From NCBI GenBank assembly GCA_039804165.1, contig JBDRZZ010000001.1, positions 1-64,000 of the forward strand: a stretch of DNA of 64,000 nt, read 5' to 3'. Position numbers and translations under genes: made by a program. This stretch comes from a candidate division WOR-3 bacterium (GTDB taxonomy: Bacteria; Hydrothermota; UBA3072). Below are positions 10,831-35,076 of this stretch, piece after piece (within the stretch, counting starts at the first letter, position 1; the number at the start of each line of letters is the position of its first letter). The notes under the pieces are model-generated. The model had not been told where the DNA came from. It saw nothing but the letters and a program-made list of their open reading frames with translations, and did not search any database.

Positions 10831-11384
10831 AAAAATTTATTTTGAAGATTGCCGAGACCGAATATATTTTAGCAATTATTTTTGGAGTATTTATTCTTCT
10901 CTCCCGTATTTTTAATTTTGCTCCGGCAAAAGTTATTCGGGAAAATTTCTGGCTATTTTTTGTTGAGATGATAACTTTTCTGCCTTTTATGTTTATTCTC
11001 ATCGGCCTTTTTGATGTCTGGTTTCCCAAGTATAAAGTAGAAAAATACATTGGAAAAAGTTCAGGCATCAAAGGGACAATCTGGTGTATCCTTCTGGCGA
11101 TGCTACAGGCAGGACCATTATACGGTGCTTTCCCTGTGGCATATCTCTTATGGAAAAAGGGCTGCAGTATAAAAAATATTTTTATCTATCTTGGGGCTTT
11201 CTCAACACTTAAGATACCGATGTTGACTTTTGAGATTGGTTTTTTAGGGTTAAAATTTTCGTTGTTACGAACTGCTGTTACTCTTCCTGTATTTATTCTA
11301 ATTGGTTATCTAATGGAATTTTATTTGAAAGATAAGAACTTCGTTGTGAACCAGCCTGCGTTAACCGGAAAAGAAAATCTCTAA
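10827..11384 (+). CDS. COG0701-type split permease, second half
   Basis: A 185-residue membrane protein with about five helices, translationally coupled to the upstream half-permease. It has the conserved loop AGPLYGAFPVAYLLWKKG and an AFSTLKIPMLTFE helix, both reminiscent of the second half of UPF0718 permeases. A short hydrophilic tail ends the protein. It is the last gene of the arsR-led run; the next promoter follows within 30 bp. Confidence 0.72.
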   Translation: MKKFILKIAETEYILAIIFGVFILLSRIFNFAPAKVIRENFWLFFVEMITFLPFMFILIGLFDVWFPKYKVEKYIGKSSGIKGTIWCILLAMLQAGPLYGAFPVAYLLWKKGCSIKNIFIYLGAFSTLKIPMLTFEIGFLGLKFSLLRTAVTLPVFILIGYLMEFYLKDKNFVVNQPALTGKENL

Positions 11385-11412
11385 ACCTTCAAACCGCCAA
11401 CCATTTTTCTGC

Positions 11413-11443
11413 TTGACAGTTCAGGTGAAACAATTATTATAAT
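11413..11443 (+). promoter_or_regulatory. promoter upstream of the CPBP protease gene
   Basis: TTGACA at 11413-11418 is followed after 16 bp by TATTAT (11435-11440), overlapping TATAAT (11438-11443, 19-bp spacer). Either -10 register would place the transcript start about 60 nt before the CPBP gene. Confidence 0.65.
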
Positions 11444-11510
11444 TTTGATGAATGCAAAAATCTTTGATATAAAGGAGCTGAATTATTGCGTATAGAAAAA
11501 AGAGGAAAAT

Positions 11511-12359
11511 ATGAATAACAAAAAGACAATTCGTAATATTCTTGTATTTATTGCAATTGTCACAATTGGTGGTTGGGTAGGAGTTATCGTTGATAAATTT
11601 CTTCCTCCGCAGCCGAGTGAAAATACCTTGGGGATGGGAATCTGGCTGGTAACTCCCTTATTAACCGTTATAGTTCTTAGAACATTCTTCGGAGATGGAT
11701 GGAAAGATGCCGGATTAAAACTTAACCTAAAGAGCGGTAGTGTATGGTATGTGGTATCATTAATTGTTTTTCCTTTAGTAACAGGCATTGTTTTGGGTAT
11801 TGGCAAATTGACTCGTTGGATTGATTTCCCCAATTTCAATGTTTCTGCTTTTGCAAAAGTTTTTATCGGATTACTTATTGTTAATTTTATCAAGAATATA
11901 TTTGAAGAATCTGTCTGGCGAGGGTATTTGACTTCCAAAATGATAAATCTGAATGTCGGTGATTTTTCAATTTATCTCGTTGTTGGCTTAGTCTGGTCTA
12001 TTTGGCATCTTCCTTATTACCTTTTATTTTTATCGGAATCAACGATTACTTCTGTTTTGCCGGTCAATAGAATAATATTCTTTTTCGTTGCTATGGTAAA
12101 TATGTTGATCTGGACAGTGATGTTTGTTGAAATTTATCGTCTGACAAATTCTATCTGGTCTGTTGTTTTACTACATACAGTCGAAGATTCACTTGTTAAT
12201 CCACTGGTCATTGATGGTTACATAAAGATTATTAGCAATAAAGAGATTTTTATATCTCCGATTTGTGGGATAATTGCAGCTCTTCTTTATCTATCTATTG
12301 GATTGGCTTTGAGAAAAATAAGGAAAAGTAATTCGAATATTGGACGGCTGGGTGGATAG
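11511..12359 (+). CDS. CPBP family intramembrane metalloprotease
   Basis: A 282-residue protein with about eight transmembrane helices. It contains all three CPBP/CAAX-protease motifs: EExxxR (Glu132, Glu133, Arg137 in FEESVWRG), the FxxxH-like WSIWHLP (His166) and a late HTVEDSLVN (His222). Members cleave prenylated or other membrane proteins, or protect against bacteriocins. It is monocistronic with its own promoter. No bacteriocin genes are near. Confidence 0.88.
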   Translation: MNNKKTIRNILVFIAIVTIGGWVGVIVDKFLPPQPSENTLGMGIWLVTPLLTVIVLRTFFGDGWKDAGLKLNLKSGSVWYVVSLIVFPLVTGIVLGIGKLTRWIDFPNFNVSAFAKVFIGLLIVNFIKNIFEESVWRGYLTSKMINLNVGDFSIYLVVGLVWSIWHLPYYLLFLSESTITSVLPVNRIIFFFVAMVNMLIWTVMFVEIYRLTNSIWSVVLLHTVEDSLVNPLVIDGYIKIISNKEIFISPICGIIAALLYLSIGLALRKIRKSNSNIGRLGG

Positions 12360-12444
12360 GGACTTATGGATTCTATTTTCTTCCCCGGGTTCTCAAAAAT
12401 ATATAAAATCTGGTTAAAAAAAGGGTGTGTGGGTAGAATTAGAC

Positions 12445-13546: not shown

Positions 13547-15814
13547 ATGAAAAAAGTAATAATCGCCTCATTATTTTTTGTTTTTCTTGTTAATGCCAAT
13601 CTCACTTTCGCTCAAGAAGTCGTTTCTGTAACCCCTCTTCAAAATGCTATAAATGTATCAAAGAGCACGAATGTCTCTGTTACATTTGACCAAGATATGA
13701 ATCCTTCCACAATCAACGGCAGCACATTCATTGTTTATTCCCTGCGAAGGGGATTACAAACAGGAACTTACACTTATAACTCTGGAACAAGAACAGCAAC
13801 ATTTGACCCGGATGATGATTTCGCTGTAGGAGAGATAGTTTCTGTTATTCTTGCCACGGACATTGAAGATGCGGAAGGTGATACTTTAAGAAGACCCTAC
13901 GAATGGTCTTTTACTGTTGAAGTGGATGGAGGAAGTGGGACTTTCGCTGAGAGGGTAGTCTATGCTATTGGGAGTTCCCCTCGGTCAGTTTTTTCTTCGG
14001 ATCTTGACGGAGATAGAGACATGGACCTTGCTGTTGCAAATTCTAACAATGTTTCTGTTTTATTTAACAATGGAGATGGGACTTTCGCTGGAAAAAAGGA
14101 CTACGGCGTGGGGAATTATCCTATGGCGGTTTTTCCTTCAGACCTCGATGGCGATGGATATATGGACCTTGCTGTTGCAAATTATGGTTCCAACAATGTT
14201 TCTATTTTAAAGAACAATGGAGATGGAACTTTCGCCGAAAAAAAGGACTACGGCGCGGGGGATTTACCTACAGCAGTTTTTTCTTCTGACCTTGACAGAG
14301 ATGGTGATTTGGACCTCGCTGTGGTGAATTATTTCTCCGAAAATGTTTCAGTTTTAAAGAACAATGGAGATGGGACTTTCGCTGGAAAAAAGGACTACGG
14401 CGTGGGGAATTATCCTATGGCGGTTTTTCCTTCAGACCTCGATGGCGATGGAGATATAGACCTTAGTATAGCGAATAATGGTTCCAATAATGTTTCTATT
14501 TTGAAAAACAATGGGGATGGGACTTTTGAACCGAAAGTGGACTATGGTGTGGGCACTTCTCCTACCTCTGTTTTTTCTTCTGCCCTTGATGGAGATGGAG
14601 ATCTAGACCTCGCTGTAACAAACGCAGGTTCCCACAGTGTTTCTATTTTACTGAACAACGGAGATGGGACCTTCGGAGGAAGAGTAGACTATAGTGTGGG
14701 GATAAATCCTATTTCCGTTTTCTCTTCAGACCTTGACGGAGATGGGGATTTAGACCTTGCTGTCGCAAATTTTTCGTCCCAAAATGTTTCTATTTTATTG
14801 AACAATAGCGATGGGAGTTTCACCAGAGAAGGCGAGTACTACTCGTGGTATTCTCCTTATTCAGTTTTTTCTTCTGACCTTGACGCCGACGGGGATTTGG
14901 ACCTCGCTATTGCAAATTCTAATTCTGACAATATTTCTATTTTATTTAACAACAATTCTTTTATTACCATAACCTCTCCCAATGGAGGGGAAGAGTGGGA
15001 AGTAGGTACCCCTTGTAACATCACCTGGACTTCTGCCTATACAAGTGGAACAGTTAAAATAGAATACTCAATAGACAATGGTTTAAACTGGATAGAAATT
15101 GTTCCAAGTATGCCGGATACTGGTATTTATTCTTGGACTATTCCAAATACACTTTCTGATAGTTGTCTTGTTAGAGTAAGTGATACTGATGGAAGCCCCT
15201 CTGATATAAGTGATGAAGTTTTCAGAATTTCTCCCGTTCCTTATATCATACTCGCCTTACCTAACGGCGGGGAAGAACTGTATGTAGACAGCACTTACAA
15301 TATCTCCTGGAACTCTGTGGGTACAAGCGGAAGTGTTAAAATAGAATATTCGATAGATAACGGTTCAAGCTGGACAGAAATAATTGCAAGTATGCCTGAT
15401 ACCGGCATTTTTAAGTGGACCGTTCCAAATACCCCATCAGATAGTTGTCTTGTAAGAATAAGCGATACAGATGGTAGTCCCTATGATATAAGTGATGAAG
15501 TTTTCAGGATTTTACCTCTTTCGGCGGTTCCAGAAGAGAAGTTGCCAGAACTCTATTCGATGGATGTAAGAACAATCGTCTCGGGTAGGATGTTTGAAGT
15601 CAGGTATGCCCTGCCTTTGAAGTCTTCTGTTAGATTTGAAATATATGATTTAAAAGGTGCGAAAATAGAAGAAATTACCGAAGAGAAACCAGCTGGCTCT
15701 TATTCAAGAGAAATAGATATGGCAGGTAAACCGGTAGGTGTATACTTCCTTAAAATGGAAGCAAACCGTGGGGCGTTTACCAAAATAGCTAAAATTGTTC
15801 TGATTAACCGTTAG
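13547..15814 (+). CDS. secreted FG-GAP/VCBS repeat protein with T9SS-like sorting domain
   Basis: A 755-residue exported protein. A signal peptide (1-23, ending FAQ) is followed by a bacterial Ig-like Big_5 domain (about 25-125), seven ~49-residue FG-GAP/VCBS repeats (about 130-475) each with a calcium-type DLDGDGDLDLAV loop, two ~80-residue PNGGEE modules (about 477-560 and 570-650) and a C-terminal domain ending YFLKM...KIVLINR typical of Por/type IX sorting signals. The repeats probably form a beta-propeller. It is likely attached to or released from the outer surface and may bind polysaccharide or other cells. An AAGGAGG site precedes the ATG. It stands alone. Confidence 0.85.
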   Translation: MKKVIIASLFFVFLVNANLTFAQEVVSVTPLQNAINVSKSTNVSVTFDQDMNPSTINGSTFIVYSLRRGLQTGTYTYNSGTRTATFDPDDDFAVGEIVSVILATDIEDAEGDTLRRPYEWSFTVEVDGGSGTFAERVVYAIGSSPRSVFSSDLDGDRDMDLAVANSNNVSVLFNNGDGTFAGKKDYGVGNYPMAVFPSDLDGDGYMDLAVANYGSNNVSILKNNGDGTFAEKKDYGAGDLPTAVFSSDLDRDGDLDLAVVNYFSENVSVLKNNGDGTFAGKKDYGVGNYPMAVFPSDLDGDGDIDLSIANNGSNNVSILKNNGDGTFEPKVDYGVGTSPTSVFSSALDGDGDLDLAVTNAGSHSVSILLNNGDGTFGGRVDYSVGINPISVFSSDLDGDGDLDLAVANFSSQNVSILLNNSDGSFTREGEYYSWYSPYSVFSSDLDADGDLDLAIANSNSDNISILFNNNSFITITSPNGGEEWEVGTPCNITWTSAYTSGTVKIEYSIDNGLNWIEIVPSMPDTGIYSWTIPNTLSDSCLVRVSDTDGSPSDISDEVFRISPVPYIILALPNGGEELYVDSTYNISWNSVGTSGSVKIEYSIDNGSSWTEIIASMPDTGIFKWTVPNTPSDSCLVRISDTDGSPYDISDEVFRILPLSAVPEEKLPELYSMDVRTIVSGRMFEVRYALPLKSSVRFEIYDLKGAKIEEITEEKPAGSYSREIDMAGKPVGVYFLKMEANRGAFTKIAKIVLINR
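14066..14452 (+). repeat. 93-bp exact duplication inside the FG-GAP repeats
   Basis: Positions 14066-14158 and 14360-14452 are identical over 93 bases at an offset of 294 bp, exactly two 49-codon repeat units, while the other units differ at many silent sites. This indicates recent duplication or gene conversion between repeat units 2 and 4. Confidence 0.85.
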
Positions 15815-16688: not shown

Positions 16689-17453
16689 TTATTTTTTATA
16701 ATTCTCTTCGTAGTAAGGCAGGGAGGTTCCTCCTATCTTGCTTATTTCCGATTTCCCTTTCTCTATCCTGTCAGTTGCAGGAGGGTGGGAAGAAAGTAGC
16801 CCCAATACTGCAGGTGGAGGATTGCCTTCCATTTTCTTAAACTTCTCAAAAACCTGAATCATACCCTCAGGATTGTATCCTGCATTCTTCGCATAAAGTA
16901 TTCCGTACCTATCTGCCTCAAATTCGTTATCTCTGCTATAACCCTGTAGTATCAGAGTTGCTGCAATATTTACAATTGTCCCTGCGGCACCCTCTGCTTT
17001 TTCGCCGAGGGCAATTTGAGCAAGTATCGAATATCCGTATATGTTTTGTAATTTTTTTATAGAATGTCTCGCTACAAGATGACTTACTTCATGAGAAAGA
17101 ACTGCCGCAAGCTGGGCTTCGTTGTCAAGAGTCTCAAGTAATCCACTGTAAACATAGATAAATCCCCCTGGACATGCAAAGGCATTTATTTCTTTTTTGT
17201 CAATCACTTTGAATGTATATTCAATATCCCTTCTGTCGCATACTCTCACGATTTTCTGACCTACCTCATTGACATAATTCTGAACCGCCGGCTTTGCCAA
17301 TAATTTTTCTTTTGATTCTACATCTGCTTTTACCTGTTTGCCAATTTCTACTTCTTCGGCGGTTGAGATAAATATGAAGTCGGTTTTCCCTTCCGGGCCG
17401 GTAGTTACACACGAAATAATGAAGAGCGATAAGAAAATGATAAATTTTTTCAT
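16689..17453 (-). CDS. M48 family metalloprotease, lipoprotein
   Basis: A 254-residue protein with a lipoprotein signal (LFIISC, Cys15), followed by an M48 peptidase domain. HEVSH (His121, Glu122, His125) and EFEADRYG (Glu179) supply the zinc ligands and catalytic glutamate. It resembles the peptidase domain of LoiP/BepA-type quality-control proteases but lacks TPRs. It would be anchored to a membrane facing the periplasm and degrade misfolded envelope proteins. It is monocistronic and transcribed against its neighbours. Confidence 0.92.
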   Translation of the reverse strand: MKKFIIFLSLFIISCVTTGPEGKTDFIFISTAEEVEIGKQVKADVESKEKLLAKPAVQNYVNEVGQKIVRVCDRRDIEYTFKVIDKKEINAFACPGGFIYVYSGLLETLDNEAQLAAVLSHEVSHLVARHSIKKLQNIYGYSILAQIALGEKAEGAAGTIVNIAATLILQGYSRDNEFEADRYGILYAKNAGYNPEGMIQVFEKFKKMEGNPPPAVLGLLSSHPPATDRIEKGKSEISKIGGTSLPYYEENYKK

Positions 17454-25110: not shown

Positions 25111-25419
25111 ATGAAAGTTAAAGAATCGAAAGAAAATAATCCAAAGAAAATTTTTAACCCTGTTCTTTTCTGGGATGCCGAGGATATAGATGTTGAAAAG
25201 CATGCAGGCTATATTATCAGCCGTGTGCTTGACTTCGGCGATGAAAAAGATATCAAAAATTTGAGAAAAGTATACCCGGAGGAGAAAATTATCGAGGTAA
25301 TAAAAAGAAGACGTAACCTGATGCCTCAAACAGGGAAATTCTGGGCTCTTTACTTTAATATTCCGCTAAAGGAGATAGAGTGTTTGAGAAAGTATTACCG
25401 GAAAATGGAGCAGAAATAA
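25111..25419 (+). CDS. DUF6922-like putative antitoxin
   Basis: A 102-residue protein with the pattern NPVLFWD near residue 20, a central ISRVLDFGDEKDI segment and a C-terminal KFWALYFNIP block. Small proteins of this kind are regularly encoded immediately upstream of AbiEii-type nucleotidyltransferases. It overlaps the next gene by 40 nt. Probable antitoxin and repressor; no DNA-binding motif is obvious. Confidence 0.7.
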   Translation: MKVKESKENNPKKIFNPVLFWDAEDIDVEKHAGYIISRVLDFGDEKDIKNLRKVYPEEKIIEVIKRRRNLMPQTGKFWALYFNIPLKEIECLRKYYRKMEQK

Positions 25420-26006
25420 TAGAGAGTCTTTCACCACATATTAATGATTTTTACCTTGCTGGTGGCACAGGTCTTGCACTTCAACTTGGTCATAGGAAAT
25501 CGTTGGGCCTGGACTTTTTTTCATCTGAGATATTTAATACCGAAGTTTTTCTTAAAAATATCCATCCTGATAAAACTCTATTGGTTAGAGAAGAAACTAT
25601 TCACTGCGAGATTGGAAAGGTTAAATTTTCTTTTCTTTTTTATAACCAACCGCTTGTTTTCCCTACACTTACCTGGCGAGGTATAAAACTCGCTGATTGG
25701 CGGGATATAACGGCTGAAAAAATTAAAGCTATCGCTCAGAGGGGAACAAAAAAGGACTTTTATGATTTGTTTGCTGTTTTACAGTTAAGATTATCTATAG
25801 ATGAGGCTTGTGGGATTTTTAAAAAGAGATTTGCTTCAACGGATGTTAATATGTATCATGTTCTTAAAAGTATAACTTTTTTTGAGGAAGCTGAAGAAGA
25901 GCCACCGCCTATTTTGTTGGTCAAAGATGAGGGATGGCGATGGGAAAAAGTGAAAGAATTCTTTGAAAAAAATATTAAGCAATTTGAAAAGAGCCTCTTT
26001 ACATAA
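25380..26006 (+). CDS. AbiEii-type nucleotidyltransferase toxin
   Basis: A 208-residue nucleotidyltransferase with AGGTGLALQLGHR (about 27-39) and LGLDFF (Asp45), then DITAEKIKAIAQRGTKKDFYDLF, the standard AbiEii/DUF1814 blocks. Such toxins block growth by modifying tRNA and are often abortive-infection effectors. It starts at GTG after AAAGGAG, within the upstream gene. Together the pair is a type IV-like toxin-antitoxin module preceding the methylase-helicase operon. Confidence 0.85.
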   Translation: MFEKVLPENGAEIIESLSPHINDFYLAGGTGLALQLGHRKSLGLDFFSSEIFNTEVFLKNIHPDKTLLVREETIHCEIGKVKFSFLFYNQPLVFPTLTWRGIKLADWRDITAEKIKAIAQRGTKKDFYDLFAVLQLRLSIDEACGIFKKRFASTDVNMYHVLKSITFFEEAEEEPPPILLVKDEGWRWEKVKEFFEKNIKQFEKSLFT

Positions 26007-26423
26007 AAATATAAAAGGATTTTTGTTTTTCTGGGAATACTAAAATTTACCTCTAAATTAGTCGGGTCTTCTTTCTTAATTTACTTCCAGGAAAATGCAA
26101 ATTGCTTAGATATATCTTTTGGTTCTATAGTTAGAAATGGAATGAGTTAATCCAAATTATCCTGAAGATTGAGAAAAATTAAGAAAGAATACTCAAACCT
26201 AAGGATTCAAATGATTATTTCTCAAGATTCAATTCTGTAAGAGAGAAAACTATCTTCTTTTCAGTTTACTAATTTTGTGTTTTCTCTTGAGAGTTTTTAT
26301 ATTGACCTATTTGATTTTTTTGTTATAATTATAAAAATAGAGATGAAAAGGGGGTAGAAGAATTCCCTTAAAAAGAAGAGTAATTAAATTCAGGAATCAA
26401 GATTTAACCCCAAAGAGGTAAGG
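26007..26423. other. 417-bp intergenic region before the defence operon
   Basis: AT-rich, no gene. It has a promoter at 26302-26329 and long-range inverted repeats: TCTTTCTTAATTT (26075 region) with its complement about 85 nt on, and AGAGAAAAC (26242-26250) with GTTTTCTCT (26279-26287). These could form operator or terminator structures; none is compelling alone. Confidence 0.5.
26302..26329 (+). promoter_or_regulatory. promoter of the helicase-methylase-ATPase operon
   Basis: TTGACC (26302-26307) and TATAAT (26324-26329), 16-bp spacer. The expected leader is about 88 nt, and AAAGAGGTAAGG precedes the ATG. Confidence 0.75.
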
Positions 26424-29400
26424 ATGGGAGATATAGTCATTAAAGCAAATGACCTTATTAAAGGTCCATACTGGTCTGAATGTGTCATAGTAAACATTTG
26501 TGAATCTCAAGGAGATTATGTTCATATTGTAGGAAAAACACAAAGAAGCAGGAACCTTATTGATCAGGTGTTACCATTAGAAGACTTAGAAAAGATCGAA
26601 ATTGTTACTGCTCGACCGCTTTTTAAGCAAGAAGCCTGGAAGGTTTTCCTATCATTAGAATCAATTAGATACCGTTATGCATCTTTATATGATCCATTAC
26701 TTGCAATGAATGTTTCAAAAATTGATCCTCTTCCTCATCAGATAGAAGGGGTTTATGGATACATTTTGAAATTACCACGGATTCGTTTCCTCATAGCTGA
26801 TGACCCTGGTGCAGGCAAAACGATAATGGCTGGACTAATTATTAAAGAACTCAAACTGCGACAGCTCATCAAACGAATCCTCATCGTGTGTCCGGGGCAC
26901 CTGAAAGACCAATGGCGACGTGAACTGCAAGAGAGATTCGATGAGACTTTTGAAGTGATAGACCGAGGCCGTTTCGATGCTATCTACAGAACAAATGTGT
27001 GGGAAAGAGAGAATCACATCATTACATCAATGGATTTCGCAAAAAGAGACGATGTGCTTCCAATATTGGCTGCTACAAAGTTCGACCTCGTTATCGTCGA
27101 TGAAGCACACAAAATGAGTGCTTACCGATATGGAGAAAAGGTCAGTAAATCTGAACGATACAAACTCGGAGAGGTGTTATCAGACATTACACATCATCTG
27201 GTATTTCTTACAGCTACACCGCATAAGGGTGACCCAGAAAATTTCAGACTCTTTCTTGATTTGCTTGACCCGGGCTTTTTTGCAACAGAAGAGATGGTGA
27301 GGGAATCCATCAAGAGTAAAGATAATCCGCTTTTCATAAGGCGAATGAAAGAAGATCTCAAAGATTTTGAAGGTAAACCACTATTTTTACCAAGATATGT
27401 CAAAACTGTGTACTTCGAAATAGGAAAGTTATCACCACGTGAAAAGGAGCTTTATAATGAGCTTTCAAAATACGTAGAGGAGCAATACAATTTAGCATTA
27501 TCAAAAGATGGGAGAAGGAATATCGCGTTTGCTCTTGTTATCCTGCAAAGGAGATTTGCCTCAAGTATTTACGCTATGTTGAAATCATTAGAGCGCAGAA
27601 AGAAAAGACTTGAAGAACTTATGGTATCTGGAACACCACCAAGAGGAGGAGAACAGGATATTGAAGAAATTGATGATCTATCTGAACAGGAACGCTGGCA
27701 GAAAGAATCAGAATGGGAGACTCTCAGTGTTGCGGAAACAGAAGAAGAATTGCAGAAAGAAATTAATACGATTAATTCTCTCATGAATAAAGCTACAGAA
27801 ATTGTTAAAAATGAAGAGGAGATTAAGCTAAAAAAACTCAAAGAATCCCTTGCTGAATTAAGCCAAAAAGTCCAAGAGAAGGAAAAAAGAAAAATTCTCA
27901 TTTTTACGGAATCCAGAGATACACTAGAATACCTTGAGAAAAAAATAAAAGATTGGGGATATTCTGTAAACACGATCCATGGTGCAATGAGGCTTGAAGA
28001 AAGGGTCTACGCAGAAACAGTATTTAGGAACGAGACAGAAGTTATGGTTGCAACAGAGGCTGCTGGTGAAGGTATTAACCTTCAGTTCTGTAACCTGATG
28101 ATTAATTATGACATACCATGGAACCCTAACCGACTTGAACAACGAATGGGGCGTATCCATAGATATGGACAAACAAGAGAAGTTTTTGTTCATAACCTCG
28201 TTGCCAGCGATACACGTGAAGGGATGGTCCTTAAACGACTTTTTGAAAAAATTGAAGAAATAAAACTTGCCATTGGGACTGATAAAGTTTTTGATGTGCT
28301 TGGTGAAATTATCGATAGTAAACAATTCTCGCAAGCAATGCTCGATGCGGCAGTCAATGCACGAAACATCGACGAAATCATCCAATCGATTGAGATAACT
28401 GTTGATGAAGAGTACATAGCGAAAGTGAAAGAAAACCTCGGCGAAACATTGGCAACACGATACATTGATTATACTCGAATCAAGGAAATGGCTCAAAAAG
28501 CAAAAGAGAACCGCCTTATACCTGAATATACGCAGAGTTTCTTTACTAAAGCCCTGGAGAGAGCTGGAGGTAAATTAAAGAAAATAGATAATAGGTTGAT
28601 TGCAATAGAGAATATACCACACGAAATTCGAAAAATTGCTGAAAATGAACTATTTAAGAAATGCTACGGAAGTATTTTAAAAAGCTACCCAAAAGTTACA
28701 TTTGATAAAGATATATCGAATAAAAACCCAAATGTTGAATTTATTTCCTTTGGGCATCCTCTCTTCGAAGCTGTATTACAATGGGTAGAAGAAAATTTAC
28801 TTGAGAGCATCTACACGGGAGCAACGTTCTACGACCCCGATGGTAAGCTTAATGGCTACATTCTTTTCTACGAAGGAGAAATAAAAGATGGCACGGGAGC
28901 TATTGCTGGTAAACGACTTTTCTCTTTCTACATAAATGATAATGGAATAAAACTTATTCCACCATCCATAATTTGGGATCTCGCTGAAGAAAATACACCA
29001 TCTCTTGTGGAAGTTCCCGATGTTGAAACAATGAAGAAGAAGGCCGTCGAATACGCTATCAAAGCCCTCGAACAATACAAATCTGAACTCCTTGCAGAGC
29101 GCAAACGGCAAGCTGAAATAAAACAGAAATACGGAGTTAAGTCACTTGAACACCTTGTTTTAAAATTAGATGAGGAACTAATTGATCTCGAAGCTCGTAA
29201 AGCCAGAGGTGAAAATGTGGACCTTGTTATAAGAAACAAGCAGGAACGAAAATTAGAGTACGAACAAGCTTTAAAAGAGCTTCAAAGCCTCATAGAAAAG
29301 GAACAAAGCTTGACAATGACGATGCCACGATTCCTTGGAATGATTCAGGTAAAACCGCATCCTCAGAAAAGTGCGGCAATGGTAAGCGATGCAGAAATTG

Positions 29401-29762
29401 AAGAAATCGGAATGCGCGTGGCAATGGAATACGAACAAACACAAGGTCGCATACCCGAAGATGTCTCATCACAAAACCTCGGTTTCGATATCCGCTCTAC
29501 AGATAGCAGTAACAACACACGGTACATCGAAGTAAAAGCCCGTGCTCAAACCGGTCCTGTTGCTCTCACACAAAACGAATGGTTTAAGGCACAACGGTTT
29601 GGTAACGATTACTATCTTTATGTTGTTTTTAACGCAGATTCAAAACCAGAGCTACGTATTATCGCAAACCCTGCCTCTATCTTAAAACCAGAAGAGAAAA
29701 TAGAGATTGTTCGCTATTTTGTGGAGAGCAATGAAATTTTAAATAAAGGAATAAAAGTATGA
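26424..29762 (+). CDS. SNF2/HepA-type helicase with C-terminal DUF3883 nuclease-like domain
   Basis: An 1112-residue superfamily 2 protein. The helicase core has Walker A DDPGAGKT (126-133), DEAH (226-229), TATPH (263-267) and motif [13 protein letters not shown] (near 573), with a Glu/Lys-rich coiled-coil insert near 370-480. The C-terminal ~125 residues match DUF3883, with GFDIRS near 1019 and YIEVKA near 1034, an arrangement like the D...ExK core of PD-(D/E)xK nucleases. It is the first gene of a three-gene operon with a DNA methyltransferase and an ATPase, each overlapping by 4 nt. Likely role: recognising, translocating along and perhaps cutting foreign or unmethylated DNA. CGN arginine codons are more frequent than in downstream core genes. 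Confidence 0.88.
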
Positions 29763-32515
29763 ACGACAAGCGCTTTATCGAAGTCTCGTTTCCAGTAAAA
29801 GAGGTAGGCGAGATTTCGGCAAAAGAAAAAAACATCCGACACGGACATATTAGCACGTTGCATATTTGGTGGGCGCGCCGACCTTTAGCTGCAAGTCGCG
29901 CGACTGCTTATGCTGCCCTTACTCCAATACCTGAAGATCCGATTGAATGGCAAAAAAAGAGAGATTTTATTATTAACCTATCCAAGTGGGAAAATTCAAA
30001 CAACGAACAACTTATCAAACAGGCACAAGAGGAAATTTTAAAAGGAAACGGAGGTAAGCCCCCAAAGGTTATAGATCCTTTCTCGGGTGGTGGTTCTTAT
30101 CCTCTCGAAGCGCTTAGACTGGGTTGTGAAGCTTATGCTAATGATTACAATCCTGTGGCTGTACTTATTGAAAAAGCTACCTTAGAATTTCCACAAAAAT
30201 TCAGCAAACCTTTTGATGGCATGCCTAATTTGCTCAAACTGCATGCTTCTAATCAATCGAAAGGCAATTTGTTTACGGATGAGAATAGAACAATCCAAAA
30301 TCCTTTGCTCTTTGCTGTTGAGTATTGGGGCAATTGGGTTTTAGAAGAAGCAAAAAAAGAATTAGCTGAATTTTATACTTCCAATAAGAGTGAAATTCCA
30401 GTTGGCTACATTTGGGCAAGAACTGTTCCTTGCCAGAACCCTTCTTGTAGTGTGGAAATCCCTCTGATGCGTCAATATTGGCTTGCTAAGAAGGATAATA
30501 AAAAGGTTGCCTTGCATCCTGTTACAAAAGGAGCTGGTAAGCCAATTGAGTTTGAAATTGTGGCGCAAGGTATTTCCAACTACAAACCTTGGCCCAAAGA
30601 TTTTGATCCCGAAGAGGGTACAGTAGCTCGTGCCAAAGTGCGGTGTCCAGCCTGTGGCTCAATGATTGATGACAAAACCACACGTAAACTATTCCAAACC
30701 GGAAAAGCTGGGGAAAGAATGATTGCTGTGGTTTATACAAAACCCAAAACCGAAGGCAAATACTACCGCTTAGCCACAGAAGAAGATATAAAAACCTTCG
30801 AAAAAGCTAAAAAAGCACTTAACAAAAAAATCGAAGAACTCCGCGAAAAATGGATTTTGGAACCTGTGCCAGATGAGGAATTGCCACCAAGAGGAACTTT
30901 AGGTTTTAGGATCCAAGGTTATGGAATGAACACTTGGGGTGATCTTTTCAATCCTCGACAGAAGCTCTCTCTTTTAGTTTTTGCCGATGCTGTGCGCAGA
31001 GCGTATGAGAAGATGAGGGAATTGGGCTATCCCGAAGATTTTGCCAAGGCTGTGACAGTATATTTGGGGATGGGATTAAGTAGACAAGCAGATTATAACT
31101 CAACTTTATGCGTTTGGGCAGTGGCAGGAGAATTTATAGCACATACTTTTGGTAGACAAGCTCTACCTATGATTTGGGACTACTTTGAATTGTATCCCGA
31201 TAGTAATGCTACTGGTGATTGGAATTCTGGGTTAAATTGGATTCTTTCAGTTCTTCACCACCTCTCCCAACTCCCCAACTCCCAATCTCCAATCCCCACT
31301 GTCACCCATTCCTCAGCCACACAGCTACCGTATCCCGACAACTACTTTGATGCAGTTCTTACTGATCCGCCATATTACGACAATGTCCCCTACTCATACC
31401 TTTCTGATTTTTTTTATGTTTGGCTTAAGCGAACAGTGGGGCATCTTTTTCCAGAGCTTTTTGCTACTCCTCTTACTCCCAAAAGTGGAGAAATTGTGGC
31501 TTACACACAAAAAGAGGGAGGGCTTGAGGCTGGAATGAAGTTCTTTGAAGAACAGTTAGCGTTATCCTTCAAAGAGATGTATCGTATTTTAAAACCTGGT
31601 GGCATTGCTGTGATTGTGTATGCTCATAAGTCAACTGCTGGCTGGGAAACTGTCATTAATGCACTCCTTGATAGTGGCTTGGTTGTCAATGCTTCTTGGC
31701 CAGTGAATACCGAAATGCAATCACGGCTCAATGCTAAAGAAACAGCATCTTTAGCTTCTTCTATTTACATTGTTGCCCGCAAAATGGAACGAAAAGATAT
31801 TGGATTTTACCCAGAAGTTAAAAAAGAGCTTGAATCCTATATGAATGAGAAGCTCGAAAGACTCTGGCAAGAAGGAATTGGTGGAGCAGACTTTTTTATT
31901 TCTGCTATTGGTGCTGGTATTGAGGTCTTTGGCAAATATAAACAAATTATGGACTACAGTGGCAATATCATTCGCGCAGATATGATGCTCGAAGATATTC
32001 GGAAAATTGCAACTGATTATGCAGTGCATAAGATCCTGCATAATGGATTTGCTGGAGAAATCAACGAACTTACCCGCTACTACGTGCTCTACCGGTGGGA
32101 ATATGGCGAAGCAAAAGTTCAATTCGACGAAGCACGCAAGCTGGCAGCAAGCTGTGGCATCGATTTAGCGAATGAATGGAACAAACATGGGTTTATTAGA
32201 AAAGAAAAAGAATTTATTCGCCTACTTGGTCCGGAAGAAAGAACCATAAAAGACTTGGAAAATTCCAATGAGCTCATCGATGTGTTGCATCATATGCTCT
32301 TGCTATGGGAAAAGAGCAAGCGAGATGACATACTTGAGCGCTTGCAGACAACCGGCTTTGGCAAGAGCGAAGCATTTTACCGAGTAGCTCAGGCAATTGC
32401 AGAAACTTTGCCGAACGAGAGTAAAGAGAAGAAATTACTAGAAGGATTTTTAGCAGGGAGAGAAAGAATTAGAAGTGAGATAAAACAAAAGAGGCAAAAG
32501 GAGTTATTCAAATGA
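29759..32515 (+). CDS. DUF1156 adenine-specific DNA methyltransferase (COG1743 type)
   Basis: A 918-residue protein. The N-terminal DUF1156 block has [20 protein letters not shown] (about 22-41). Motif [11 protein letters not shown] (about 107) binds S-adenosylmethionine, motif [10 protein letters not shown] (about 534) is the catalytic DPPY, and Zn-ribbon-like CQNPSC (about 226) and CPACG (about 296) lie between them. Probably modifies host DNA so that the partner helicase-nuclease spares it. A proline/serine-rich stretch just before motif IV (about 500-517) looks like an inserted C-rich DNA repeat. ATGA overlaps on both sides indicate coupled translation. Confidence 0.9.
31256..31306 (+). 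repeat. C-rich low-complexity repeat inside the methyltransferase gene
   Basis: An abrupt run of near-repeats of CCAACTCC / CCAATCTCC in an otherwise mixed-composition gene encodes a Pro/Ser/Gln stretch directly before the catalytic motif. The frame is kept. It resembles a short repeat that has invaded or expanded within the coding sequence. Confidence 0.5.
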
Positions 32516-35076
32516 AACCATTTCATACAATAGCAATCCCTCACAAAGACATCCTTGAGGGTCGTTTCACAATGGATGTTTTTGCAGCGGACCTTTGGGA
32601 AGCGTATCACAATCGCGGTCCGGCTGAGTATCGGGATGCGAAAACATTTTTTGAGAAGACGTACGAAACCCAAGGGTTACAAAATCTGCTTGATGTTATC
32701 TACAGGCGAGTAACCGGCAAGGGTGGTGATTCGACCATTCAGATTCAGACACCATTTGGTGGAGGTAAGACGCATTCGCTTATTGCCATCATGCACAAGG
32801 CGCAGGAGTGGAACGCGAAGAGAGTTGTCATTGTGGGTACAAATATTAGCGCAAAGGATACGCTCTGGAGTATTCTTGAGCAACAACTTACGGGGAAGAA
32901 TGAAAAACTCGTTGGATTAACATCGCCGGGTAAAGACAAGATAAAAGCAGTGCTTCAGGCGCATCAGCCTCTCATCATCCTTATGGATGAAGTGCTTGAG
33001 TATGTAACGAAAGCCGCTGGAGTAAAAGTAGAAAGCAGTACACTTGCCGCACAAACTATGGCGTTTATGCAGGAGCTGACGGAGACGGTCTCGATTTTGG
33101 AGAAGGCGTGCCTTGTGGTAACGCTTCCATCAAGTATAATCGAACACTACGATCAGGCAGCAGAACAATTATTCGCTCAGCTTCAAAAAGTGATGGGACG
33201 AGTGGAAAAAATCTATACGCCTGTGCAAGAATCCGAGATTGCCAAGGTCATTCGTCGAAGGCTTTTTACATCTGTTGATGAGAAAAAGGCATTACAAGTA
33301 ATTAAGCACTTTCTTGACTATGCTCAGAAGGAAGGGATTCTCCCGCCTGGGATGGAAGTCAGCGAGTATCGGGATAGATTTTTAGATTCTTATCCTTTTA
33401 TGCCAGAAGTGATTGATGTTTTATATCACAGGTGGGGAAGTTTCCCTGGTTTTCAACGGACTCGAGGTGTTTTAAGGCTTCTTTCATTAGTTATCTCAGA
33501 ACTCAAAACAAAAAATCTTCCTTATATCAGTCTTGCAGATTTTAATCTTGCCCAACAGGAGATACGTCAAGAACTCTTAAAACACATTGGAACAGAATTC
33601 AACAGTGTCATTGCACAAGATATTACTGATGCAGATGCGGGAAGTAAGAAAGTGGATATGAATCTTGGCGAAGCGTATAAGGGTTTACACCTTGCAACTC
33701 GAGCTTCAACGGCAATTTTTATGTATTCATTCTCCGGAGGAACAGAACGGGGGGCAACGCTAACAGAAATTAAACGGACAGCAACAACGCTCAATAACCC
33801 TTCTAGTGTTGTTGCAGAAGCTCTTGAGCAGTTGAAGAGCAAGCTGTTTTATTTCCAACTTCAAGCAGATAAGTACTTCTTCTCGAACCAGCCAAATATT
33901 AATCGTATTATCCTCACTAAAATGGAGAATGTTCACGATGCAGAATTGCTTGAATTAGAGAAAGACTTACTGAAGCAGAATATCCGTGGAGATCGAATGA
34001 AAGTGTTTCTGTGGGAAGAACAATCGTCGTCAATTCCTGATACTGAAGATCTGAAGCTTATTATTTTACCAGAAGAGAAGAAAGAGGTGATTGAATCTAT
34101 TTTGAAAACAAAAGGTGAAAGCCCTCGGGTAAATTGTAACACTTTATTTTTCCTTTTCCCTACTGATATTGAGCGAGCAAGCTTTAGAGTTCAATTGAAA
34201 CGCTACAAAGCTTACCAAGCGCTTGAGAAAGATACAACCGTTTCTCTGGGAGAGGAACAACGGAAAGAAATTCGTGCTGAACTCAAGAGATACGAAAGCG
34301 ACATCAAAGAAGCACTTCGGAAACTGTACCGACAAGTTGCCATTCCTACGAGGGAAGGCTACAAGAAAGACGACCTTGGCATCCCAACGTATGGTGAACA
34401 GAAACCACTTGATGTTGTGGTGTATGAGAAACTTCTTTCAAATGGTGAAGTTGTTGAGCAGTTAGTTCCACTCGTCATTAAGGAACGATACCTTAAAAAC
34501 AATAGGTTTGTATTAACAAAACAGATTGCGCAAGCGGGATACCAGACTCCAGGTGAGCTTCGAGTTAGAGACAGAACTATCCTTGAAAGAGCAATTTTAG
34601 AGGGGATTGAGAAAGGTGTATTTGGTTTGGGGGAACTTGAAAACGACAAGCCGATTTGTAGATATTTTCAAGAAACCCCGAGGGTTGGTTTTAGTGATAA
34701 TGAGATTCTTATAAGTGAGGAGCTCTGTAAAGAGGAAAAAAGAGGTAAGGAAAGGATAACTTCGGAACATAAGATGGAGTATCCACCGAGCACTTCCGTT
34801 GGAACAGGAGCAGCTGTTAATGAATCTTTGGAGGTAGCTGTAGAAGAGAGCGGTTTTAAGGATAATGTCCACTTAAGTTTTGATATTCCTAAAGGGAAAG
34901 TTTCTGAGGTATTACGCATAATAAACTTTTTACAGCAAAAATTTGAGATTATTAATTTAGAAATTAAAGCAAGGGATGGAAAAATTTCTGAACAGGATTA
35001 TGAAAATAAAGTGAAAGAGGCGTTGAGACAATTGGGAATTGAGTTTGGAGAGGAAAATAGACCAAACAAATTGTAG
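32512..35076 (+). CDS. DUF499 AAA-type ATPase (COG1483 type)
   Basis: An 854-residue protein with Walker A FGGGKTHS (about 82-89), Walker [12 protein letters not shown] (about 152-162), an arginine-rich AAA segment and a C-terminal region ending in charged helices. DUF499 ATPases are found in defence islands with DUF1156 methylases and SNF2 helicases. Likely a large motor or assembly ATPase of the system. It overlaps the methyltransferase stop by 4 nt and is the last gene of the operon. Confidence 0.9.

Follow-up and report, generated by a model that had tools for sequence, protein, structure and literature searches.

Is the three-gene operon at positions 26424-35076 of a candidate division WOR-3 contig a new kind of antiviral defense or a copy of one already known, and what does the patchwork of its methylase gene suggest about how such systems acquire their targets? 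The operon lies in the first 64,000 nucleotides of contig JBDRZZ010000001.1 (assembly GCA_039804165.1), the stretch analyzed here as a whole and called the window below. An earlier note, made from the sequence alone, had read the operon as a compact, self-contained, methylation-guided defense made up of a SNF2 helicase with a fused DUF3883 domain, a DUF1156 methylase, and a DUF499 ATPase. Judged by gene content and profile matches, the operon is a complete copy of the already described Hma, or Type-1 BREX-Related (BR), system. Hma was named in 2021 in the PADLOC paper, with HmaA as the helicase, HmaB as the methylase, and HmaC as the ATPase (PMC8565338), and a 2026 survey by Rakesh and Krishnan renamed the Hma systems BR, with Type-1 found in 2446 taxa (PMC12839542).

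The three plus-strand open reading frames (ORFs), of 1112, 918, and 854 amino acids (aa), overlap by ATGA at both joints, and the ORF list of the window holds neither a separate restriction gene nor any other or embedded gene inside the operon. PADLOC models matched the proteins in gene order as HmaA (E 2.3e-202), HmaB (E 8e-136), and HmaC (E 2e-116), far beyond chance; these genes are adjacent, as the definition of Hma asks, and the only core genes of the operon are those of Type-1 BR, a DUF499 ATPase, a DUF1156 methyltransferase (MTase), and a Swi2/Snf2 helicase. Pfam found SNF2/Helicase_C and, at residues 992-1080, NOV_C (PF13020, the DUF3883 family; E 3e-25) in HmaA, DUF1156 in HmaB (E 9e-21), and DUF499 in HmaC (E 1e-31). 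Thus, the profile search proposed in the earlier note bore it out on all three domains, and its gene layout and its motifs (GFDIRS, YIEVKA, DPPY, and GGGKTH[S]) are all present. For the single promoter that it had described, the candidate is the nearest strong promoter-like site upstream of HmaA, probably the promoter of the whole operon by its match to the consensus; such sites are not enriched in the operon region (28 versus 24.2 in shuffles). A sequence search of solved structures matched only the helicase core, with RapA as the best hit; for the nuclease domain, DUF499, and the methylase it gave nothing usable. The PADLOC BrxHII model aligns to HmaA residues 79-962. An Rfam search of the window gave zero matches.

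We aligned the C-terminal 143 residues of HmaA with 73 relatives and modeled them with AlphaFold2. The model (predicted local distance difference test [pLDDT] score 90.7, predicted template modeling score 0.82) shows a long helix, then strands, then another helix, in the order of PD-(D/E)XK folds. The PD-(D/E)XK family holds an E...D...ExK site on the first helix and the second and third strands. Read from the secondary structure, E1004, D1022, E1036, and K1038, which are invariant over 77 helicases, fall on these elements; N1051 and E1052 are nearly invariant. The DUF3883 domain of HmaA is, by prediction, a PD-(D/E)XK nuclease with a metal site, the feature on which the earlier note had made its reading depend, and cutting is best placed in this helicase-fused domain. 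The predicted fold and conserved residues also agree with the active C-terminal PD-(D/E)XK domain of Type-1 BR helicases.

The best solved fold for the domain is the archaeal Holliday-junction resolvase Hjc (2wcw; Z 12.4 over 110 residues, root mean square deviation 2.7), and further matches include SPARDA subunits, the restriction endonucleases (REases) NhoI (Z 10.8) and Eco15I (Z 10.4), I-Ssp6803I, and PvuII. With resolvases nearest, the nuclease might instead target phage replication or recombination intermediates, that is, branched DNA rather than unmethylated sites, with the methylase and ATPase gating it indirectly; BREX is reported to act by blocking phage replication (PMC13326643). We consider this unlikely, as NhoI and Eco15I score almost equally, the fold alone is uninformative about the substrate, and SNF2 translocase-nuclease fusions are typical of restriction enzymes.

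HmaC carries a Walker A motif (GGGKTH) and a Walker B motif (DE, residues 159-160). Its DUF499 model (pLDDT 84.8) finds its best match in the Acinetobacter BREX protein BrxC (Z 18.6 across 397 residues), with ORC/Cdc6 and p97 well below (Z about 12 to 13); this nearest fold lends structural support to kinship with BREX. The C-terminal part of the model, the region where Type-1 BR has RRM, is of low or middling confidence. An N-terminal HEPN domain is absent from HmaC and from all 25 aligned relatives. This absence bears on the idea of an abortive system, in which triggered HmaA would cut indiscriminately and kill the cell, with the methylase serving only as an antidote. Relatives frequently hold embedded MNT-HEPN, Schlafen, or OLD-like genes, and HEPN is fused to DUF499 in about half of Type-1 BR taxa (1370 of 2446; PMC12839542), but the window copy has neither the fusion nor an embedded gene, and we regard an abortive mechanism as very improbable.

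In HmaB, motif I reads DPFSGGG (aa 106) and motif IV reads TDPPYY (aa 535), and there is a variable recognition insert with four cysteines (225, 230, 296, and 299); both motifs, together with Cys225 and Cys230, are kept in nearly all relatives. DPPY and the motif order suggest an adenine-N6 methylase.

The mosaic make-up of this methylase emerges from a comparison with the system of a Cyanobacteriota metagenome-assembled genome (MAG), G060, which is represented by loci L017 and L107. The helicases and ATPases of the two systems share 64% and 57% protein identity, and their four-fold degenerate sites are saturated (identity 0.24 and 0.17). Within a few codons of the helicase/methylase gene boundary, synonymous identity rises from 0.24 to 0.93, and two blocks of the methylase are nearly identical (Table 1); over aa 761-918, identity returns to 64% and four-fold identity to 0.25. 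Divergent tracts inside the shared part, at aa 376-392 (35%) and aa 425-500 (55%), resemble exchanged cassettes. Such a jump at synonymous sites is not explicable by constraint but is explicable by recent recombination, and the pattern suggests that exchange with the cyanobacterial system affected the HmaB gene and spared those of the helicase-nuclease and ATPase. The window/G060 pair was the extreme outlier, with a best block of 0.97, when all locus pairs with saturated helicases were scanned in blocks of 30 four-fold sites. Near-identical blocks occurred in 11 of 1224 methylase pairs versus 1 of 275 ATPase pairs, but we accept only the window pair as a clear case, because the remaining ten methylase pairs come mostly from Chloroflexota, in which the baseline is higher. 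A search for the donor of the shared block found no other near-identical copy, whether in 386 genomes from the phylum of G060 or in 147 from that of the window. The Poribacteria pair L027/L037 has the converse pattern: the helicases are 97% and the ATPases 91% identical, while methylase aa 301-600 are 57-77% identical, with four-fold identity down to 0.21.

Since the evidence for the mosaic is drawn from MAGs, an assembly chimera in either the Cyanobacteriota MAG or the window's own MAG could mimic recombination. G060 contig C38 stops within the methylase gene and C44 starts there, with an overlap of 20 bases, and many relatives' contigs likewise stop in this gene. However, the left junction lies within C38 and the right-hand decay within C44, both far from contig ends; synonymous differences are scattered across the shared block; the joined G060 frame is open over its full 917 aa; and neither the several internal divergent tracts nor the tract replacement in the independent Poribacteria pair fits a chimera, which we judge improbable.

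Recombination thus being the preferred reading, the window/G060 and Poribacteria mosaics suggest that specificity is carried by the methylase and can be exchanged with it, as with PglX, which determines specificity in BREX (PMC11341690). If the helicase and ATPase indeed work with a methylase of foreign origin, the target of restriction is most likely set by the methylase. A broader proposal, to which we give even chances, is that specificity in Hma/Type-1 BR resides in a single interchangeable module, the methylase, whose core and recognition cassettes recombine across phyla as well; the helicase-nuclease and ATPase would stay in place and accept each new specificity. Mosaic exchange of an Hma methylase is not described in the literature consulted, and the mosaic points to the specificity-setting subunit of Hma, for which that literature lacks direct evidence.

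Other irregularities of methylase genes were set apart from these mosaics. A drop in identity at 426-525 among Archaeoglobales methylases was considered as a hypervariable cassette and rejected: in one Archaeoglobales MAG (L046), the methylase is split just before motif IV into two ORFs (10888-12360 and 16765-17229), separated by a gap of ~4.4 kb that holds ATPase and MNT-HEPN-like genes. The first half-gene ends at the identity drop, and the Archaeoglobales pairs were therefore excluded. Among 57 loci (L008-L087) whose contig ends ≤10 kb downstream of the helicase, 32 end in the methylase gene and none in the ATPase gene, possibly reflecting strain variation that upsets assembly; we do not rely on this clustering, because survivorship of long contigs makes it weak.

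How might the three proteins work together? HmaB would mark self DNA by methylating adenines within a motif that its internal recognition insert reads; HmaC, as a BrxC/ORC-like AAA+ ATPase, would then assemble a complex on unmethylated sites of incoming DNA; and HmaA, translocating along this DNA, would cleave it through its C-terminal PD-(D/E)XK domain, which would protect this host. Replacement of the methylase alone is expected if the methylase carries specificity, like PglX in BREX, and counts in favor of this scheme. We hold with high confidence that the operon belongs to Hma and follows a general restriction-modification (RM)-like antiviral scheme, and place most of our doubt on how it is triggered; "methylation-guided," the wording of the earlier note, is better put as presumably blocked by self-methylation. 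Several points weigh against this interpretation. Antiviral activity and cutting by the window operon are predictions from sequence and models, and the catalytic geometry was read off the secondary structure and the alignment rather than by superposing coordinates. The assignment of HmaB as an N6-adenine methylase, as opposed to N4-cytosine or the 5-methylcytosine (m5C) type given in the PADLOC paper, derives from the DPPY motif alone. The match of the window proteins to Type-1 BR covers the core genes and the C-terminal nuclease domain; the family is also ascribed N-terminal TUDOR and inactive REase domains in the helicase and a C-terminal RRM in the DUF499 protein (PMC12839542). Finally, cutting by an Hma complex is not shown in the literature consulted, in which the 2024 experimental paper is represented by its title and citation.

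A single scan retrieved 80 related loci (helicase identity 53-78%) in Chloroflexota, Aquificota, Thermotogota, Bacteroidota, Archaeoglobales, Bathyarchaeota, and others. In bacteria and archaea alike, the helicase gene is usually followed by one for a DUF1156 methylase and, where the contig extends far enough, usually by DUF499 as well; the exceptions include L022 and L024, with no recognizable ATPase within several kilobases. The trio thus recurs across many phyla, as the earlier note had anticipated. (The contig end at L008 is CTGTCTCTTATACACATCT, a leftover Nextera adapter in the public assembly.) The helicase tree mixes phyla, the nearest relative of the window helicase coming from a Bacteroidetes MAG, followed by Cyanobacteriota and Hydrogenedentota; the window ATPase lacks a counterpart in the one further genome of its genus and in the family's remaining four; and the operon has a GC content of 40% versus 35% around it. 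The simplest reading of these observations is that the operon was acquired horizontally. An empty-site comparison yielded no clean insertion site, because the genes on either side of the operon are not neighbors in relatives, and no convincing direct or inverted boundary repeats were found around the operon.

Operons of relatives often hold embedded genes between the core genes, including MNT-HepT pairs, OLD-like ATPases, Schlafen/AlbA, and a PD-(D/E)XK protein. The MNT-HepT pairs lie in the helicase-methylase gap in L009, L011, L051, L052, and L063 and in the methylase-ATPase gap in L012 and L057; their presence in differing gaps across unrelated phyla suggests repeated insertion into the same system. 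Upstream of the window operon, Pfam identified DUF6922 and an AbiEii-like nucleotidyltransferase, the toxin-antitoxin genes that the earlier note had listed alongside the system. That association falls: none of the 80 related loci has the pair, and in many genomes among the window's relatives it occurs independently, so that on these comparisons it is a separate module outside Hma. In the window AbiEii-like protein, the first Asp of the catalytic S-x-D-x-D is Gly (GHRKSLGLDFF), as also in L114, whereas the motif reads S-x-D-[LF]-D in most relatives; the protein may lack activity or work by another chemistry. Elsewhere in the window, a 147-base unit repeated 6.6 times in tandem has codons that read as FG-GAP/VCBS-like repeats (DLDGDGDIDLAVANYG).

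Table 1. Positions of the operon, its parts, and other features in the window
Feature	Position	Strand	Basis
HmaA, SNF2-type helicase with predicted C-terminal PD-(D/E)XK nuclease (1112 aa)	26424-29762	+	Pfam, PADLOC HmaA, RapA-like helicase match
Predicted nuclease domain NOV_C/DUF3883, residues 970-1112	29331-29759	+	AlphaFold2, Hjc fold match, invariant residues
HmaB, DUF1156 methylase, putatively N6-adenine type (918 aa)	29759-32515	+	Pfam, PADLOC
HmaC, DUF499 AAA+ ATPase (854 aa)	32512-35076	+	Pfam, PADLOC, alignment
Methylase block 1, aa 5-375	29771-30885	+	97% nucleotide identity to Cyanobacteriota MAG G060, four-fold-site identity 0.93
Hypervariable methylase cassette, aa 425-500	31031-31258	+	55% aa identity to G060 methylase
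Methylase block 2, aa 501-660, motif IV core	31259-31738	+	98% aa identity to G060, four-fold-site identity 0.87
Promoter-like site TTGACC-16-TATAAT with TG extension (extended -10)	26302-26329	+	Consensus match only
DUF6922 and AbiEii-like pair	25111-26006		Pfam
Tandem array, 147-base unit	13985-14953

Among known systems, the operon is nearest to Hma, with which it shares the same three proteins in a single operon (all models E <1e-115) and the lack of a separate restriction gene. Unlike the HmaB of the PADLOC paper, its HmaB appears to be an adenine-N6 rather than an m5C methylase, and this copy lacks Septu or any other embedded gene. It is not DISARM: the helicase scores 402 bits against the 610-bit cutoff of the DrmD equivalog, and no DrmA, DrmB, or DrmC gene is adjacent. 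The compact gene set described in the earlier note stands, but its novelty does not, since the system names, the helicase-nuclease fusion, and DUF3883 as an REase are already known and the copy itself adds no new kind. DUF3883 fused to the SNF2 helicase in such operons was termed a novel REase domain in 2013 (PMC3710099), and the COG1743-DUF499-SNF2/nuclease operon was described as a predicted restriction system in the 2020 EVE paper (PMC7641849). Type-1 BR likewise combines a DUF499 ATPase, a DUF1156 N6-MTase, and a Swi2/Snf2 helicase that in 79% of taxa carries a fused, active C-terminal PD-(D/E)XK domain (PMC12839542), as is predicted here; the window copy belongs to the minority without HEPN on DUF499. 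The Snf2 helicase-nuclease of Halomonas meridiana (Liu et al. 2024), cited in the survey as experimental proof of antiphage activity (PMC12839542), resembles HmaA, by its description there, in the fusion of a nuclease domain to the helicase. The chief contribution of this copy is thus a compact, HEPN-free example of a system already named and reported to be antiphage. Type-2 BR, which has a standalone DUF3780 gene in its core locus and an HKD nuclease on its helicase, does not apply, as the operon has no extra gene and Pfam found no PLD/HKD domain in the helicase. A genome-wide search found no DUF3780, but its control also matched nowhere. Type-3 BREX has a homologous ATPase (BrxC, nearest to the window DUF499 model), methylase (BrxXI), and helicase (BrxHII); unlike Type-3 BREX or BR, however, the window genome (95% complete) gave no match to PglZ in a search that found it in control genomes, and the window helicase bears its own nuclease. 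In Type I RM, exchange of the specificity module, HsdS, is a known route to a new target. If the methylase plays this part in Hma, Hma would join Type I RM and BREX as a third family that can be retargeted by swapping one module.

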